Origin: Clostridiales bacterium
GTDB lineage: Bacteria; Bacillota; Clostridia; Oscillospirales; JAAYOS01
Reading direction: 5' to 3'
DNA length: 53,618 nucleotides
Assembly: GCA_012520195.1 (NCBI GenBank)
Contig: JAAYOS010000064.1
Coordinates: 1-53,618 of the forward strand
Shown here: piece after piece, positions 39 through 50,228 of the stretch
How the letters are laid out: each line of letters begins with the position of its first letter
How positions within the stretch are numbered: position 1 is the stretch's first letter
Notes under the pieces: generated by a model
The model's input: the letters and a program-made list of their open reading frames with translations, nothing else
The model's database searches: none
Told to the model about the DNA's origin: nothing
Translations under genes and position numbers: made by a program

Positions 39-98
39 AGCGAGCAGTAAGCGAGCTGTAAAATATTTCATTTTGCTACTTGACATTTATTGCTCGCT
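39..98. promoter_or_regulatory. Inverted repeat with one arm inside the ABC-exporter promoter
   Basis: AGCGAGCA at 39-46 is the exact reverse complement of TGCTCGCT at 91-98. The second arm lies between the -35 (80-85) and -10 (104-109) boxes, and a further partial copy (GCGAGC) sits at 51-56. The position would suit a repressor operator with DNA looping, but 8-bp arms 44 bp apart can arise by chance. Confidence 0.3.
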
Positions 99-109
99 GC
101 TATTATAAT
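80..109 (+). promoter_or_regulatory. Sigma-A promoter of the leader ORF and ABC exporter operon
   Basis: The -35 box is a perfect TTGACA at 80-85 and the -10 box a perfect TATAAT at 104-109, with an 18-bp spacer. Transcription should start near 116, giving about 30 nt of 5' leader before the leader ORF at 147. A promoter this good in front of an attenuator suggests that output is controlled mainly by termination downstream. Confidence 0.85.
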
Positions 110-146
110 ATCTTGGAAATGACAACAGTGAAAGGAGGCCGGAAAG

Positions 147-233
147 ATGAATAACTGCATGAAATATATGGAAGTTGATGTGGTATCATTAGTTGACAAT
201 GTGAATGACAACCGGCCTTGCAAATGTAAGTAG
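147..233 (+). CDS. 28-residue leader peptide ORF upstream of the ABC exporter
   Basis: An ATG at 147 follows a near-ideal ribosome site (AAAGGAGG, 131-138) and reads 28 codons to TAG at 231-233. The peptide starts MNNCMKYMEV and ends NRPCKCK, with three cysteines (4, 25, 27). It has no signal peptide or membrane segment. The last codons (Pro-Cys-Lys, 216-224) are also the first strand of a set of competing RNA helices that ends in a terminator at 289-317, so the ORF probably acts through its translation rather than its product. This resembles the arrangement of the B. subtilis bmrB leader in front of bmrC-bmrD, though I see no sequence similarity to BmrB that I can vouch for. A less likely alternative is a small cysteine-containing peptide exported by the transporter. 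Confidence 0.7.
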   Translation: MNNCMKYMEVDVVSLVDNVNDNRPCKCK

Positions 234-317
234 TTGATCTATTTTTGCAAGGGCGAGAACTGTGGCCCTTGTTCATCAGGAAGATTCAGCCGCAGGAAGT
301 ATACCTGCGGTTTTTTT
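212..317 (+). promoter_or_regulatory. Leader-peptide transcription attenuator (competing helices)
   Basis: Five segments can be paired by eye. Segment 1 (216-224) pairs with segment 2 (244-252) over 9 bp. Segment 2 (248-254) pairs with segment 3 (265-271) over 7 bp. Segment 3 (260-266) pairs with segment 4 (289-295) over 7 bp, one of them G-U. Segment 4 (290-296) pairs with segment 5 (304-310) to form the terminator. Each helix excludes its neighbour. A ribosome at the leader stop codon covers segment 1, so 2:3 and then the terminator form. A ribosome held up early leaves 1:2 free to form, then 3:4, the antiterminator. In addition 136-142, overlapping the leader ribosome site, can pair with 212-218. 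The helices are seen; the switching is inferred. Confidence 0.7.
289..317 (+). terminator. Rho-independent terminator within the exporter leader
   Basis: A 7-bp GC-rich stem (CCGCAGG 290-296 with CCTGCGG 304-310), extended by a G-U pair, has a 7-nt loop and is followed by seven T residues (311-317). It lies between the leader ORF and the TTG start of the first ABC gene at 380, so it must be overcome for the exporter to be made. Confidence 0.85.
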
Positions 318-379
318 CAGTCTATATTGAAAAAAGTCCGGATGTGGAAGACAGGGGCAAAAACTTAGGAGGAAAATGC

Positions 380-2164
380 TTGAACAGAGAGAGAATCAGA
401 GCATTGTTCGGATATCTAAAGGGCTATAGGCATCTACTGCTGATCAGTCTCTTCATAATGTTATCCGAGCTTATATTTGCTTTTATATCACCACTATTCT
501 TTTCGGTTACTATTGACTCGGTGCTCGACACCAAACCGCTGGACACTGCTCCCGACTTTATTGCTTGGTTAGTCGCTGCAGTTGGCGGTGTTGAGAACAT
601 TCGGAGAAATCTATGGATAGTAGCTGTAGCGATCGTCACCCTTCAGATTATTCGAGGTGCCTTAACCTTTAGTCGCAGTTATTCAACAAACAAGGCCTCG
701 GAGGGCACTATCAAGAAGCTTCGTGACAGGCTGTATTCGCATGTCCAGAATCTACCGTTTAAGTACCATGTGTCAGCTCAAACCGGTGACTTGCTTCAGA
801 GAGCCACAAACGATTTAGATACGATTCGCAGGTTTATAGCTGGTTCAATGCTTGAGCTTGTCCGTACGGTAATGCTTTTTGTAGTCGGAATCTTTGTAAT
901 GTCCAGAATCCATGTGCCTCTTACATTTCTTTCCCTTCTTTTTTCGCCTGCAATAGTGTTTACTTCACTCTATTTCTTCAGGAAGATCCAGAAGATGTTT
1001 ACAGAGGTCGAGGAGGCGGACAGTAAGGTATTTACGTTGGTTCAGGAGAACCTGACCGGGGCGAGGGTCGTTCGCGCCTTTGGGCGTCAAAAATTTGAAC
1101 TCAACAAGTTTAACGAAGGGAACGAGGAACTTCGTAATGAGATAATCAAACTCAATAACTTGTTTTCATACCTTTGGGGTTCGCTTGATTTCATAAGTGG
1201 GGCGCAGATTGTCATTGTTGCTGTATTTGGTATTATCTTTACAGTAAACGGAAGCCTGACACTTGGTCAGTACACTGCGTTTATGAGTTATGTGCACATG
1301 TTCATATGGCCTCTGAGGGGCTTTGGCCGTGTTCTATCCGATTTCGGAAGGACTCTGATAGCTGTTAGCAGAGTGCAGGAGATACTCAACGAAAAAGAGG
1401 AAGATTTCTACGAAGGACTAGAGCCTGATATAAGCGGCGACATTGTATTTGAAAATGTCTGCTTCTCATATGACGATAAAAAGGTCCTCGACAACCTCAA
1501 TATGATTGTCAAAGGTGGCCAGACCGTAGCAATTCTGGGCGGTACAGGCTCCGGAAAGTCGACACTGATTCAGCTACTGCAGCGTCTGTATGACATTCAG
1601 AGCGGCAGCATTAAGATAAGCGGCGTAGACATAAATGATATTAACAAGAAGTATCTGCGCGATAGGATAGGCATAGTGCTCCAGGAACCGTTCCTGTACT
1701 CAAGGACTATACTCGAAAACATTGCTATTAAGACAGATAAACCAGACATCGAAAGGGTACAGGAGGCCTCACGTATAGCCTCCGTACACGATGACATCGA
1801 GAGATTTGAACTTGGCTACAACACTGTTGTCGGAGAACGCGGAGTGACCCTCTCAGGTGGACAGAAACAGCGTGTTGCGATTGCTCGTGCACTTGTAAGC
1901 GAAAGTGATATCCTTATTTTTGATGACTCGCTGTCAGCTGTAGACACAAAGACCGACGCAAGTATAAGGGAGGCCCTGAAAAGCCGTAGACAGGGTACAA
2001 CTACATTCATTATTTCTCACCGTATTACGACCCTAATGGAAGCAGACAGGATATTCGTCCTTAAGGATGGCCGGGTCGTTGAACAGGGGACGCATGAAGA
2101 GCTTATGGATATCGGTGGAATATACAGAAAGACCTATGAAATTCAATCTTCACAGGTCGTTTAA
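380..2164 (+). CDS. ABC exporter half-transporter, degenerate-site subunit (BmrC/TM287-like)
   Basis: A 594-residue fused membrane plus ATPase half-exporter acting at the cytoplasmic membrane, probably for drugs or other amphiphiles. The TTG start at 380 is chosen because TTAGGAGG (365-372) lies 7 nt upstream; the same frame stays open further 5' but runs through the attenuator. The transmembrane domain occupies about residues 15-310. Walker A GGTGSGKST is at about 387-395, signature LSGGQKQ at 491-497, and Walker B ends in D515-D516, so the usual catalytic glutamate is aspartate. That substitution is characteristic of one partner of heterodimeric exporters such as BmrCD and TM287/288. The partner gene follows after 30 bp. 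Expression is probably set by the attenuator at 212-317. The substrate is not deducible. Confidence 0.92.
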   Translation: MNRERIRALFGYLKGYRHLLLISLFIMLSELIFAFISPLFFSVTIDSVLDTKPLDTAPDFIAWLVAAVGGVENIRRNLWIVAVAIVTLQIIRGALTFSRSYSTNKASEGTIKKLRDRLYSHVQNLPFKYHVSAQTGDLLQRATNDLDTIRRFIAGSMLELVRTVMLFVVGIFVMSRIHVPLTFLSLLFSPAIVFTSLYFFRKIQKMFTEVEEADSKVFTLVQENLTGARVVRAFGRQKFELNKFNEGNEELRNEIIKLNNLFSYLWGSLDFISGAQIVIVAVFGIIFTVNGSLTLGQYTAFMSYVHMFIWPLRGFGRVLSDFGRTLIAVSRVQEILNEKEEDFYEGLEPDISGDIVFENVCFSYDDKKVLDNLNMIVKGGQTVAILGGTGSGKSTLIQLLQRLYDIQSGSIKISGVDINDINKKYLRDRIGIVLQEPFLYSRTILENIAIKTDKPDIERVQEASRIASVHDDIERFELGYNTVVGERGVTLSGGQKQRVAIARALVSESDILIFDDSLSAVDTKTDASIREALKSRRQGTTTFIISHRITTLMEADRIFVLKDGRVVEQGTHEELMDIGGIYRKTYEIQSSQVV

Positions 2165-2194: not shown

Positions 2195-4030
2195 GTGAGC
2201 GTTATTCAGGAACAAGATTACAGTGCCCGCAAAGTTGATCTCAAAACATGGCGTAAAATCCTCGGATATGCCGCTAATAACAAGAAATATATTTTCATAG
2301 CTGTTTTCTTCGGTATGCTTACCGGAATACTTGACCTCTGCACCAATTATGTCTCTATGTGGGCTATAGACGGATTTATAAGTCCCAAGAATACAGAGCG
2401 CCTGCCCATCTTCATTATTGTGGCTGTGCTCATACAGATTGGGTTTGCACTCTTTACCATACTGTTTGTACAGGCTTGCGGTAAGCTAGAAGCACATCTT
2501 TCGGCGGATATCCGCAAAGAGGCATTCACCCGCCTACAGACCATGAGCTTTTCATACTTCGACAAGACACCCGTTGGCTATCTTGTAACAAGACTGACAA
2601 ACGATGTCTCGCGCTCTACCGAAACTGTGTCATGGAGCTTTATTGACCTAGGATGGGGAAGCATGGCAATTGTTGCAAGTCTTGTAGGTATGTTTTTGGT
2701 CAATACAAGGCTCGCGCTTATTATCATTGCTGCGATGCCGATCATGGTTCTGGTTTCAGTAGTATTTCAGAAGCAAATACTTAAGTACCAGAGAAAATCC
2801 CGTAGACTTAACAGCATGATAACTTCGTCCTTCAATGAAGGCATCATGGGTGCTCGTACAACAAAAACCCTTGTTAGGGAAGAACTAAACAACAGAGACA
2901 TGTTTGCTCTTACAGACAGAATGCGCCGTGCTTCAATGCGTGCCATAACCGTTTCGGCTCTATATATGCCTGTAGCATCGCTTGTGATCAGCATTGCAAT
3001 TGGTTTGGTTTTGAACAGAGGCGGCTTCTATGTATTGGGCGGCTATATCACGATTGGACAGCTAAACTTTTTCATAACAATCGGCAACTTTATGTTCGAG
3101 CCGATAAGAAACTTTTCAAGAATCTTTGCTGAGCTCCAGACTTCACAGGCTGCTGCAGAACGGGTAGCGGAGGTTCTCGATGCGCGCTCCGATATAATCG
3201 ATCCGGATGAGATTGTGGCAAAATACGGAGACATGTTTGAGGCCAAGACCGAGAACTGGGAACCAATAAGAGGAGATGTTGAGTTTAGAAACGTATCCTT
3301 TAGTTACAAGGACGGGGAAGAGGTTCTGAAAAACTTCAGCCTAAAGGTCAAGGCAGGAGAAAATATTGCCCTAGTCGGTGAAACAGGGAGCGGCAAGTCC
3401 ACCATCGTTAATCTCATCTGCAGATTCTACGAGCCCCAGGAGGGCACAATACTCATAGATGGTAAAGACATACGAGAGAGAAGTCAGCTCTGGCTTCAAT
3501 CAAACTTAGGGTACGTTCTGCAATCTCCCCAGCTTTTCTCGGGCACCATACGTGAAAACATCAGGTATGGAAAGCTGGATGCAAGCGACGAAGAGGTGGA
3601 GAATGCAGCCAAAATGGTCGGTGCCCATGAGTTCATAATGGATCTTCCCAAAGGATACGATACCGAAGTGGGAGAGGGAGGCGGCAGGATATCCACTGGA
3701 CAAAAACAGTTGATTTCCTTTGCCCGGGCTATCATCGCCGACCCGAAGATATTTGTCCTCGACGAGGCTACAAGCTCCATCGATACCGAGTCTGAGACGA
3801 AGATCCAAAAGGCGAGCGAGAGATTGCTTCGTAACAGAACAAGCTTTATTATCGCCCATAGGTTATCTACAATTAGAGATGCTGACCGTATCCTTGTAAT
3901 AGACAGTGGTGAGGTAATTGAGCAGGGTAGCCACAATGAGCTGATGGAGCTAAAAGGTTACTACTACGAACTGTATACAAATCAGTTCAAGACAGAAAAG
4001 ATACAGGAATCTGTTCAGGCTCTGGATTAG
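2195..4030 (+). CDS. ABC exporter half-transporter, catalytic-site subunit (BmrD/TM288-like)
   Basis: 611 residues, the partner of the gene at 380-2164. The GTG start at 2195 is the first usable codon after the upstream stop; the ribosome site (AAAGGG, 2178-2183) is modest. An N-terminal six-helix domain runs to about residue 340 and is followed by an ATPase with Walker A GETGSGKST (about 395-403), an unusual signature ISTGQKQ (499-505) and Walker B FVLDEATSS with the catalytic glutamate E524. In heterodimeric exporters the degenerate ATP site combines the aspartate-type Walker B of one subunit with a divergent signature in the other, and exactly this pattern is seen here. A terminator follows at 4076-4128, making these two genes and the leader one transcription unit. 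Confidence 0.92.
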   Translation: MSVIQEQDYSARKVDLKTWRKILGYAANNKKYIFIAVFFGMLTGILDLCTNYVSMWAIDGFISPKNTERLPIFIIVAVLIQIGFALFTILFVQACGKLEAHLSADIRKEAFTRLQTMSFSYFDKTPVGYLVTRLTNDVSRSTETVSWSFIDLGWGSMAIVASLVGMFLVNTRLALIIIAAMPIMVLVSVVFQKQILKYQRKSRRLNSMITSSFNEGIMGARTTKTLVREELNNRDMFALTDRMRRASMRAITVSALYMPVASLVISIAIGLVLNRGGFYVLGGYITIGQLNFFITIGNFMFEPIRNFSRIFAELQTSQAAAERVAEVLDARSDIIDPDEIVAKYGDMFEAKTENWEPIRGDVEFRNVSFSYKDGEEVLKNFSLKVKAGENIALVGETGSGKSTIVNLICRFYEPQEGTILIDGKDIRERSQLWLQSNLGYVLQSPQLFSGTIRENIRYGKLDASDEEVENAAKMVGAHEFIMDLPKGYDTEVGEGGGRISTGQKQLISFARAIIADPKIFVLDEATSSIDTESETKIQKASERLLRNRTSFIIAHRLSTIRDADRILVIDSGEVIEQGSHNELMELKGYYYELYTNQFKTEKIQESVQALD

Positions 4031-4335: not shown

Positions 4336-4623
4336 ATGAAATCAAGACTAAAAGATCCTAAGATGGATGAACTCTTTTTAGCTATTATGTCACTGGAGAC
4401 ACTCGAGGAGTGTTATTCCTTTTTTGACGATCTTTGCACGGTTTCGGAACTAAAAGCAATGGAGCAGCGCTATCAAGTAGCAAAGATGCTCAACAAGGGA
4501 TGCGTATACAGTGAGATTGCTGCTGAGACTGGTGCCAGCTCGGCCACTATAAGTCGTGTTAACCGCTCACTATTGTATGGGTCGGACGGCTATAAAATTG
4601 CTCTCTCAAGGCTGGAGGAGTAA
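4336..4623 (+). CDS. yerC: YerC/YecD-family TrpR-like DNA-binding protein
   Basis: 95 residues, ATG start with GTGAGG upstream. The protein matches the YerC/YecD family, small TrpR-superfamily helix-turn-helix proteins of Firmicutes: an N-terminal helical part (LETLEECYSFFDDLCTVSEL) leads into the recognition region (YSEIAAETGASSATISRVN, about residues 58-76). It is probably a dimeric transcription regulator; its ligand and targets are not known to me. The stop codon overlaps the ATG of the next gene (TAATG), so translation of the two is coupled. A CTAG-containing repeat just downstream of a possible promoter suggests self-repression. Confidence 0.88.
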   Translation: MKSRLKDPKMDELFLAIMSLETLEECYSFFDDLCTVSELKAMEQRYQVAKMLNKGCVYSEIAAETGASSATISRVNRSLLYGSDGYKIALSRLEE

Positions 4624-5402
4624 TGGCTTACGAAGTCTTAGCCGCTGCCTACGACCACCTGACGAGCGACGTAGACTATGAATCTACAGCATCTTCTGTT
4701 GTGGATTTGCTTCGCCGTAACGGCGTAAAAGACGGGATCGTTCTCGATCTGGCTTGCGGCACAGGGACACTGTCCTATCTTCTGGCTGAAGAGGGATACG
4801 AGGTTATCGGTGTCGATGCCTCTGCTGAGATGCTTTCTGTGGCCGAGCAGAAAAGGGACTCCAGGTCAACATACACGCAGCCTATATTTATTATGCAGGA
4901 TATGCGTGAGCTCGATCTTTATGGAACAGTCGATGCTTGCATATGTATGCTCGATAGTGTCAACTATATAACTGTACCTGAAAACCTTCTTGAGGTGTTC
5001 AGGCGCGTCCACTTGTTTCTGAATCCCGGGGGGATTTTTCTATTTGACATTAACACTCCCGTACACTTCTCAGAAGTAGAAGGAAGAACTTTTTATGATG
5101 AGGATGATCAGGAGGGAGTCTTCTGTGTATGGAGAGTAGCCCGGACGGATGAGGACGCTCTATTCCAATATTGCGTTGACCTCTTCTTCCGTGACGATGA
5201 GTCTCCAGATATGTGGCGGAGACAAAGTGAAGAGCACTACGAGTATGCATATAGTCCTGAAGCTGTAGAATCGATGCTTCGGAGGGCAGGGTTTATAAAC
5301 ATTGAGCTTCGTAGTAGTATCAGTGGTGATAAGCTTACAGGTACTGAAAGGCGAGCATACATTTTGGCTTTCAAGTCACCTGATCAACCTGAGGAGGTTT
5401 AG
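4623..5402 (+). CDS. Class I SAM-dependent methyltransferase
   Basis: 259 residues, starting in the TAATG overlap with yerC. The glycine-rich SAM loop is LDLACGTGTLSYLL (about residues 41-54), followed by an acidic residue at the end of the second strand (EVIGVDAS) and a motif-IV-like stretch (DACICMLDSVNYI). The N-terminus (YEVLAAAYDHLTSDVDYE) is typical of small-molecule or UbiE-like methyltransferases. No substrate-specific domain is present. The downstream gene follows after 3 bp, making it part of a yerC-methyltransferase-hslO-yihY operon. Confidence 0.85.
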   Translation: MAYEVLAAAYDHLTSDVDYESTASSVVDLLRRNGVKDGIVLDLACGTGTLSYLLAEEGYEVIGVDASAEMLSVAEQKRDSRSTYTQPIFIMQDMRELDLYGTVDACICMLDSVNYITVPENLLEVFRRVHLFLNPGGIFLFDINTPVHFSEVEGRTFYDEDDQEGVFCVWRVARTDEDALFQYCVDLFFRDDESPDMWRRQSEEHYEYAYSPEAVESMLRRAGFINIELRSSISGDKLTGTERRAYILAFKSPDQPEEV

Positions 5403-5405
5403 TAT

Positions 5406-6299
5406 TTGGGTAAAATAGTACGAATGCGCAGTGAAGACGGTTTTTTGCTTGCTAGCGCAATAGATAGCACAGACATCGTGGCTGAAGCCACAAGAATCCA
5501 CCAAACATCTGCAACTGCAAGTGCGGCACTGGGAAGAGCTTTGTCAATTACTTCTCTAATCGGGAAGACGATCAAAGCGCAGGATGGATCGGTTACTCTT
5601 CAGTTCAAGGGTGGTGGCCCCGGAGGTACTTTAATTACAGTATCCGATACCGAAGGCAACGTTCGAGGCTATATTCAGCACCCCAATGCAGATGTGGCAC
5701 GTAAGCCGAATGGCAAGCTAGATGTCGGCGGCCTTATAGGTACAGATGGCATTCTAACTGTCATTAAAGATCTGGGTATGGGAGAGCCATATATAGGGAC
5801 AGTTAGCCTCTTGAGCGGTGAGATTGCGGAGGATGTTGCCTTGTATTTTGCCGAGAGCGAACAGATACCAACTGTTTGCGCCGCGGGGGTGCTCGTAAAC
5901 CCGGACGGCTCAATACAGTGTTCTGGCGCTTATATTCTGCAGCTGATGCCCGGATATGATGAGCAAATAATCGACAAGCTCGAACGGCAGGTTCTGAAGG
6001 CAGAATCCGTTACAGATATGCTCAGAAAAGGATTTGGTCCCGAAGAGATGTTGAGGACTATCCTAAAGGAAGAGGACCTTGTTGAGCTTGAAGAGCTTTC
6101 AGCAGAGTACCGCTGCTATTGTAGCAAAGAACGTGTTACAGGAGCGCTTGTAAGCATAGGTGAAAAAGACCTCCGTGACATGATCTCTGAGCAGGGCAGT
6201 GCTGAAGTGACCTGCCAGTTCTGTGATAAAATATACAACTTTTCTGAGGATGAACTGACTCAAATTCTGCAGTTTGCTTTGAATAAGCAGGATGTGTAG
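5406..6299 (+). CDS. hslO: Hsp33 redox-regulated holdase chaperone
   Basis: 297 residues with a TTG start at 5406; GAGGAGG at 5391-5397 is 8 nt upstream. Hsp33 is a cytoplasmic chaperone activated by oxidation, which releases zinc from a four-cysteine centre. The N-terminal domain shows the family motif LQFKGGGPGGTL (about residues 73-84), and the C-terminal zinc module is CYCSKE plus CQFC near residues 238-275, so all four cysteines are kept. The length is usual for the family. It lies in the yerC operon, 33 bp before the YihY-like gene. Confidence 0.96.
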   Translation: MGKIVRMRSEDGFLLASAIDSTDIVAEATRIHQTSATASAALGRALSITSLIGKTIKAQDGSVTLQFKGGGPGGTLITVSDTEGNVRGYIQHPNADVARKPNGKLDVGGLIGTDGILTVIKDLGMGEPYIGTVSLLSGEIAEDVALYFAESEQIPTVCAAGVLVNPDGSIQCSGAYILQLMPGYDEQIIDKLERQVLKAESVTDMLRKGFGPEEMLRTILKEEDLVELEELSAEYRCYCSKERVTGALVSIGEKDLRDMISEQGSAEVTCQFCDKIYNFSEDELTQILQFALNKQDV

Positions 6300-42940: not shown

Positions 42941-43017
42941 GCGCTTGTAGCTCAGCAGGATAGAGCGGCCGCCTCCTAAGCGGCAGGTCGGAGGTTCGAC
43001 TCCTCTCAAGCGTGCCA
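42941..43017 (+). tRNA. tRNA-Arg (anticodon CCT)
   Basis: The cloverleaf is complete: acceptor GCGCTTG with CAAGCGT, D arm around AGCTCAGCAGGATAGAGC, anticodon stem GCCGC/GCGGC with loop CTCCTAA giving CCT (reads AGG), T arm GGAGG TTCGACT CCTCT, and an encoded CCA end. Confidence 0.97.
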
Positions 43018-50154: not shown

Positions 50155-50228
50155 TGCGGGATTGTGTAACGGTAGCACGGCAGACTCTGACTCTGTTTGT
50201 GAGGGTTCGAATCCTTCTCCCGCAGCCA
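50155..50228 (+). tRNA. tRNA-Gln (anticodon CTG)
   Basis: Acceptor TGCGGGA pairs with TCCCGCA, D arm GTGTAACGGTAGCAC, anticodon stem GCAGA/TCTGT with loop CTCTGAC giving CTG (reads CAG), T arm GTTCGAATC, and an encoded CCA end. The U1-A72 pair at the acceptor end is typical of tRNA-Gln. Confidence 0.96.

Follow-up and report, generated by a model that had tools for sequence, protein, structure and literature searches.

The window analysed here is the whole 53,618-nt stretch of DNA, which comes from contig C154 of a 2.45-Mb draft genome of a Clostridiales bacterium and which carries near its start, on the + strand like every leader feature described below, two adjacent genes for ABC half-transporters. 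The first, ABC1 (380..2164), starts at the TTG at 380 with an AGGAGG (an ATG at 376 lies in another frame), a start found also in relatives of genus g4, and combines a canonical LSGGQ signature with a degenerate catalytic site in which Asp replaces the catalytic Glu of Walker B (ILIFDD). The second, ABC2 (2195..4030), starts at GTG and combines a canonical Walker B (IFVLDE) with a non-canonical signature (ISTGQ). Both halves match the chains of TmrAB, TM287/288 and BmrCD, which are solved bacterial heterodimers, and share with that class the arrangement of two neighbouring half-transporters, one of whose ATP sites is degenerate. Judged by sequence and homology, ABC1 and ABC2 are a heterodimeric multidrug-type exporter, with no specific NCBIfam equivalog above cut-off among the matches listed. 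The ABC1 of one relative (L022, genome G214) contains an in-frame TAG, either an error of that draft genome or the mark of a pseudogene. On the 3′ side of the exporter (4336-6299) lie a YerC/TrpR-like regulator, an ORF that reads as methyltransferase-like and Hsp33, and two tRNA genes are found further on (42941-43014 and 50155-50225).

Ahead of ABC1 lies a sigma-A/70-type promoter (80..109) that matches the consensus at 12/12 positions, with TTGACA at 80-85 and TATAAT at 104-109 separated by an 18-nt spacer, the best among 13 promoter-like sites in 4.5 kb; TTGACA-type promoters were also seen 5′ of the leader in several relatives. It is followed by a Shine-Dalgarno (SD) sequence (AAAGGAGG, 131..138) and a leader ORF of 28 codons (MNNCMKYMEVDVVSLVDNVNDNRPCKCK, 147..233), which is retained in relatives with a peptide that is weakly constrained at most; all complete leaders of relatives contain such an SD-led ORF. 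An intrinsic terminator (289..317) begins 55 nt past the leader stop codon and consists of a hairpin (289-311) and a run of seven T (311-317), with a similar hairpin in every complete leader. A short SD-led ORF between a promoter and an intrinsic terminator, 5′ of the regulated gene, is the layout of a ribosome-mediated attenuator. The earlier note had listed the promoter, the leader ORF with its SD, four helices (1:2, 2:3, 3:4 and 4:5), the T7 terminator and the two-gene ABC exporter, and all of them are present as it claimed.

A DNA search of the window's family with the leader matched nothing except the window itself, so that conservation was traced through the exporter instead; a contig search for related loci gave distant ABC proteins only, without useful leaders. 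ABC1 orthologues were found at 63–65% identity in six other genomes of family f1 and at 50–51% in five genomes of family f15, and all of these relatives (11/11) carry an SD, an ORF of 23–45 codons, a hairpin and a terminator 5′ of ABC1. At the level of the class, orthologues at 45–50% identity in families f46, f66, f74 and f29 are preceded by the same layout, and a search with an RNA model added f71. About 28 complete leaders from seven families of one class (f1 with seven genomes, f15 with five, f46, f66, f74, f29 and f71) all precede ABC1 orthologues; from one family to another the layout is retained, with peptides and helices of largely unrelated sequence. In the window's own order, exporter homologues with less than about 48% identity have no leader. 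In a tree of ABC1 it appears in the f46, f66, f29/f74 and f15+f1 lineages and is missing from the remaining branches, a distribution that fits descent with losses, though transfer may also have contributed. A plasmid search returned a single remote homologue, in a Subdoligranulum record that has no annotation. One ABC1 from family f13 (L020, genome G221) falls inside the f1 clade at 55% identity and has no leader, possibly through transfer and loss of the control region. In another locus (L085, genome G655, family f32), the start region GGAAGGAGGTCGTG is kept 5′ of ABC1 and proper terminators are missing, which looks from its sequence like a decayed leader.

The leaders come in two forms: in f46, f66, f71 and f74 a T run follows the 2:3 hairpin, so that these have tandem terminators, and no such T run is present in f1 and f15. 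Two tandem terminator-like hairpins were observed in L066-L070, L073, L075, L079, L081, L082, L084, L086, L089, L090 and L099, and in several tandem-terminator leaders segment 2 is a near copy of segment 4. The f29 leader L077 has no convincing second terminator. Pairing of segments 1 and 2 would give read-through in both forms, and the single-terminator form of f1 and f15 may be the derived one. A complete leader with SD GGAGGTTGTG, the tail CACAACC and two terminators also lies at about 130-400 of L098 (genome G524, family f48) as an orphan, the next gene being on the opposite strand and not an exporter.

Six segments can be arranged in a chain of five helices in the window. Segment 0 (GAGGCCGG, 135..142) overlaps the SD; segment 1 (212..224) lies within the last leader codons, with 212-219 used in 0:1 and 216-224 in 1:2; segment 2 (244..254) stands immediately 3′ of the leader stop and contributes 244-252 to 1:2 and 247-254 to 2:3; segment 3 (260..272) contributes 265-272 to 2:3 and 260-266 to 3:4; and segment 4 (289..296) is both the 5′ arm of the terminator and the 3′ arm of the antiterminator. 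Helix 1:2 thus pairs CCTTGCAAA with TTTGCAAGG, 2:3 pairs GCAAGGGC with GCCCTTGT, 3:4 pairs CTGTGGC with GCCGCAG (289-295) and competes as antiterminator for the terminator 5′ arm, and 4:5 pairs GCCGCAGG (289-296) with CCTGCGGT (304-311). In several relatives 2:3 and 3:4 share segment 3 entirely (e.g., L016-L018), but in the window 2:3 and 3:4 have only 265-266 in common, so that exclusion there is geometric (pairing of the 2:3 loop would form a pseudoknot).

Compared with dinucleotide shuffles, two regions of the window fold more stably than expected (z = -5.2 for 247-320 and z = -3.4 for 205-320), with p of about 0.004-0.014 for 1:2 and 0.006 for 3:4. Combined by Fisher's method, 3:4 reaches 1e-12 over 17 leaders (1.2e-11 without the window). 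For 1:2 both tests are given, as the choice between them affects p: with bulges allowed the combined value is 8e-10 over the 18 representatives (1.2e-8 without the window), with contiguous pairs only it is 6e-4, and one by one the helix is weak in several f46/f66 leaders. These combined values are approximate, because the representatives share kinship, though their segment sequences are largely turned over. Nearly every leader has strong 2:3 and 4:5 hairpins, and 12 aligned f46/f74 leaders show double compensatory changes at five pairs, all within the second terminator. The fold of minimum free energy of the whole leader is uninformative because it is dominated by 1:2 and a far 3′ hairpin. Terminators 5′ of genes are common, so a constitutive partial terminator or a set of chance hairpins that do not switch might be proposed; this is extremely improbable given combined helix p-values of 1e-8 to 1e-12 and given that seven families have retained an SD-led ORF and alternative helices while the sequences turned over. 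The earlier note would have been contradicted by relatives that conserve neither the leader ORF nor the alternative pairings, and the opposite was found, with both recovered across those families and the helices statistically supported.

The four-helix chain of the earlier note was recovered entirely, but it was incomplete, since a fifth helix (0:1) between the SD/start region (GAGGCCGG, 135-142) and the tail of the leader (CCGGCCTT, 212-219) had been overlooked, and this helix would turn the absence of translation into an OFF state. Its score in the window was matched by none of 500 tail shuffles and none of 1000 in a further set, and the combined Fisher value over 18 representatives, approximate like the others, is 1.5e-10 (3.6e-9 without the window). 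The pairing is kept despite sequence turnover, as seen in L069 (GAGGTCGTG with CACGACCTT) by comparison with the window, and is formed by GAGAGCCGGTT and GACCGGCTCTT in L015, GGGATCGGCAGG and TCTGCCGGTCTT in L016, GCGGGAAAAATG and TGTTTTTCCCGC in L021, and GGTTGTG and CACAACC in L098. A model of four helices only, under which the exporter would also be ON when translation is absent, draws on the strength of 1:2 by itself in the window (-18 kcal/mol); it is unlikely, given that 0:1 is the most significant helix of the window and significant in several families, and that in the untranslated fold of the window its presence lowers 3:4 from 0.87 to 0.03.

With 0:1 included, the chain 0:1, 1:2, 2:3, 3:4 and 4:5 (terminator), in which each helix excludes the next, would act as follows. 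Without a ribosome, 0:1 would hide the leader SD, 2:3 would form and the terminator would end transcription (OFF). A ribosome reading normally to the leader stop would cover segment 1, so that 2:3 and the terminator would form again (OFF). A ribosome that stalls or slows in about the first two-thirds of the leader would open 0:1 and leave segment 1 free to form 1:2, which would free segment 3 to pair with segment 4, prevent the terminator and allow transcription of the exporter (ON). The nascent RNA was folded up to segment 4 with the ribosome footprint masked, in an equilibrium and not a kinetic calculation. In the window, 0:1, 2:3 and 3:4 stand at 0.87, 0.75 and 0.03 with no ribosome, 1:2 and 3:4 at 0.80 and 0.87 with a ribosome near the start, and 2:3 and 3:4 at 0.77 and 0.15 with a ribosome at the stop. 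Masking the ribosome footprint yields the switch that the earlier note had predicted; its proposal that an early, slowed ribosome permits 1:2 and 3:4 and hence read-through is supported by the folding, with the amendment that the untranslated state would be OFF through 0:1. In the window, 6/200 leader shuffles equalled the contrast among the three states, as did 2/200 full shuffles. That the fold is set by whether a ribosome covers a segment within the leader ORF is indicated by 1:2 and by a scan of the ribosome edge. The window fold is sensitive to the exact position of this edge, and with the edge at +5 to +9 segment 4 is still held at 0.82-0.84. Among the relatives, L021 and L024 give states close to those of the window, L015 agrees for the first two (2:3 could not be scored in its stop-codon state), and L014, L016, L019, L022 and L025 show the pattern in part only. 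Scored on pairing of segment 4 with any upstream partner, the contrast is weak and the untranslated OFF state unclear in L015, L019, L021 and L022; in most leaders segment 4 is released and then sequestered again around the leader stop.

Purifying selection on the leader peptide is slight (pN/pS 0.34–1.7 in close pairs), with weak to absent conservation, so the case for translation lies in the SD-ORF layout, which is retained throughout with a stop codon usually 4–36 nt 5′ of the 2:3 hairpin, and not in codon conservation. Peptides from different families are unrelated, and some residues that recur (ARP, TRP and LPMP) do so because segment 1 pairs. An attenuator of the same type could instead respond to the level of an amino acid or its charged tRNA, as in trp or his, with the exporter relieving metabolite overflow, and the his operon leader follows the same six-segment logic (PMC4046918). 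This is improbable, however, because none of the leader translations examined contains a run of codons for a single amino acid, because amino-acid composition shifts freely among relatives, and because the genes under control encode a heterodimeric exporter of multidrug type; the missing codon run and the exporter target point to elongation stress as the signal. Neither an arrest peptide nor an amino-acid sensor would suit these leaders as well as a general elongation sensor does, and the natural inducers, on the most natural reading, would be ribosome-targeting antibiotics exported by the pump.

A different kind of effector is implied if the leader is a ligand- or protein-binding RNA (a riboswitch or the target of an antiterminator protein) and the ORF is incidental. 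The hairpin sequences GGCCATAGGT / CCTGTGG are conserved within f46 and f74 in the manner of a binding site, and such binding was raised by Naville and Gautheret (2010) for other ABC-leaders, among 205 predicted attenuator candidates 5′ of ABC transporters, one of which precedes a multidrug export operon in lactobacilli (PMC2965389). The main-text section on these ABC-leaders treats them as possible aptamers and does not describe a leader peptide or a five-helix chain. For the present leaders a binding RNA is very improbable: f1 and f15 have the same layout with unrelated sequences and hence no common aptamer, segment 1 lies inside the ORF and the SD belongs to the helix chain, and no Rfam family reached its gathering score for the window or for 20 leader-carrying loci.

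Ribosome-mediated attenuation remains the preferred reading, and two known systems resemble it. The closest in function is bmrB of B. subtilis, a leader ORF with terminator, antiterminator and anti-antiterminator that controls the heterodimeric multidrug ABC exporter bmrC-bmrD, whose induction requires leader translation and ribosome-targeting drugs (PMC4191407). Unlike bmrB, whose terminator lies inside the coding region and for which three structures are described (PMC4191407), the window has its terminator outside the leader ORF and five helices including one that hides the SD; its exporter belongs to the same broad class as BmrCD but is not a close orthologue (BmrC at 299.8 bits, below TmrB). 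The closest in logic is the his attenuator of Salmonella, with helices A:B, B:C, C:D, D:E and E:F, in which A:B and E:F form without translation (OFF), B:C and D:E upon stalling (ON) and E:F upon full translation (OFF) (PMC4046918). The six-segment chain and the three states are alike, including a first helix that gives an untranslated OFF state, whereas the window lacks a regulatory codon run, uses the SD region as segment 0 and precedes an exporter rather than a biosynthetic operon. The mef(E)/mel(msrD) and erm-type leaders also place resistance genes under leader translation in the presence of macrolides (PMC4335068, PMC10314930) and are likened here by function alone, their target genes and leaders being different. 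As read from the sequence, this is a known kind of control, like bmrB-bmrCD and his, set apart by a terminator placed outside the leader ORF and by the missing codon run; the element is undescribed in the literature searched, which comprised open-licence papers only and leaves its novelty unproven.

Computation gives the anatomy and its conservation, the significance of the helices and a predicted fold for each of three states; from these we infer that transcription is actually terminated in the leader and that in the cell the effector is a ribosome. It is very probable that the leader is a ribosome-mediated transcription attenuator of six segments and five helices that senses stalled elongation and controls the ABC exporter; since the position of the ribosome on the leader would set the fold, the pump would be produced only upon stalling of protein synthesis, for instance by a ribosome-targeting antibiotic. 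The wider proposal stands at about even chances: an ancient, class-wide RNA element that distinguishes absent, stalled and finished ribosomes, and that uses the SD-hiding helix to turn the exporter ON in the stalled state only, derived from a possibly tandem-terminator ancestor (as in f46, f66, f71 and f74) whose first terminator was reduced to a pure anti-antiterminator in the lineage of the window (f1 and f15). The attenuator reading leads to a clear-cut prediction, that elongation inhibitors would turn the exporter ON and a block of initiation would leave it OFF, and it would offer a model for attenuators that retain their logic as the bases of their helices change. Such an attenuator would provide a conserved link, outside Rfam, from ribosome stress to an efflux pump across a large bacterial class, many members of which were covered here as draft genomes only.
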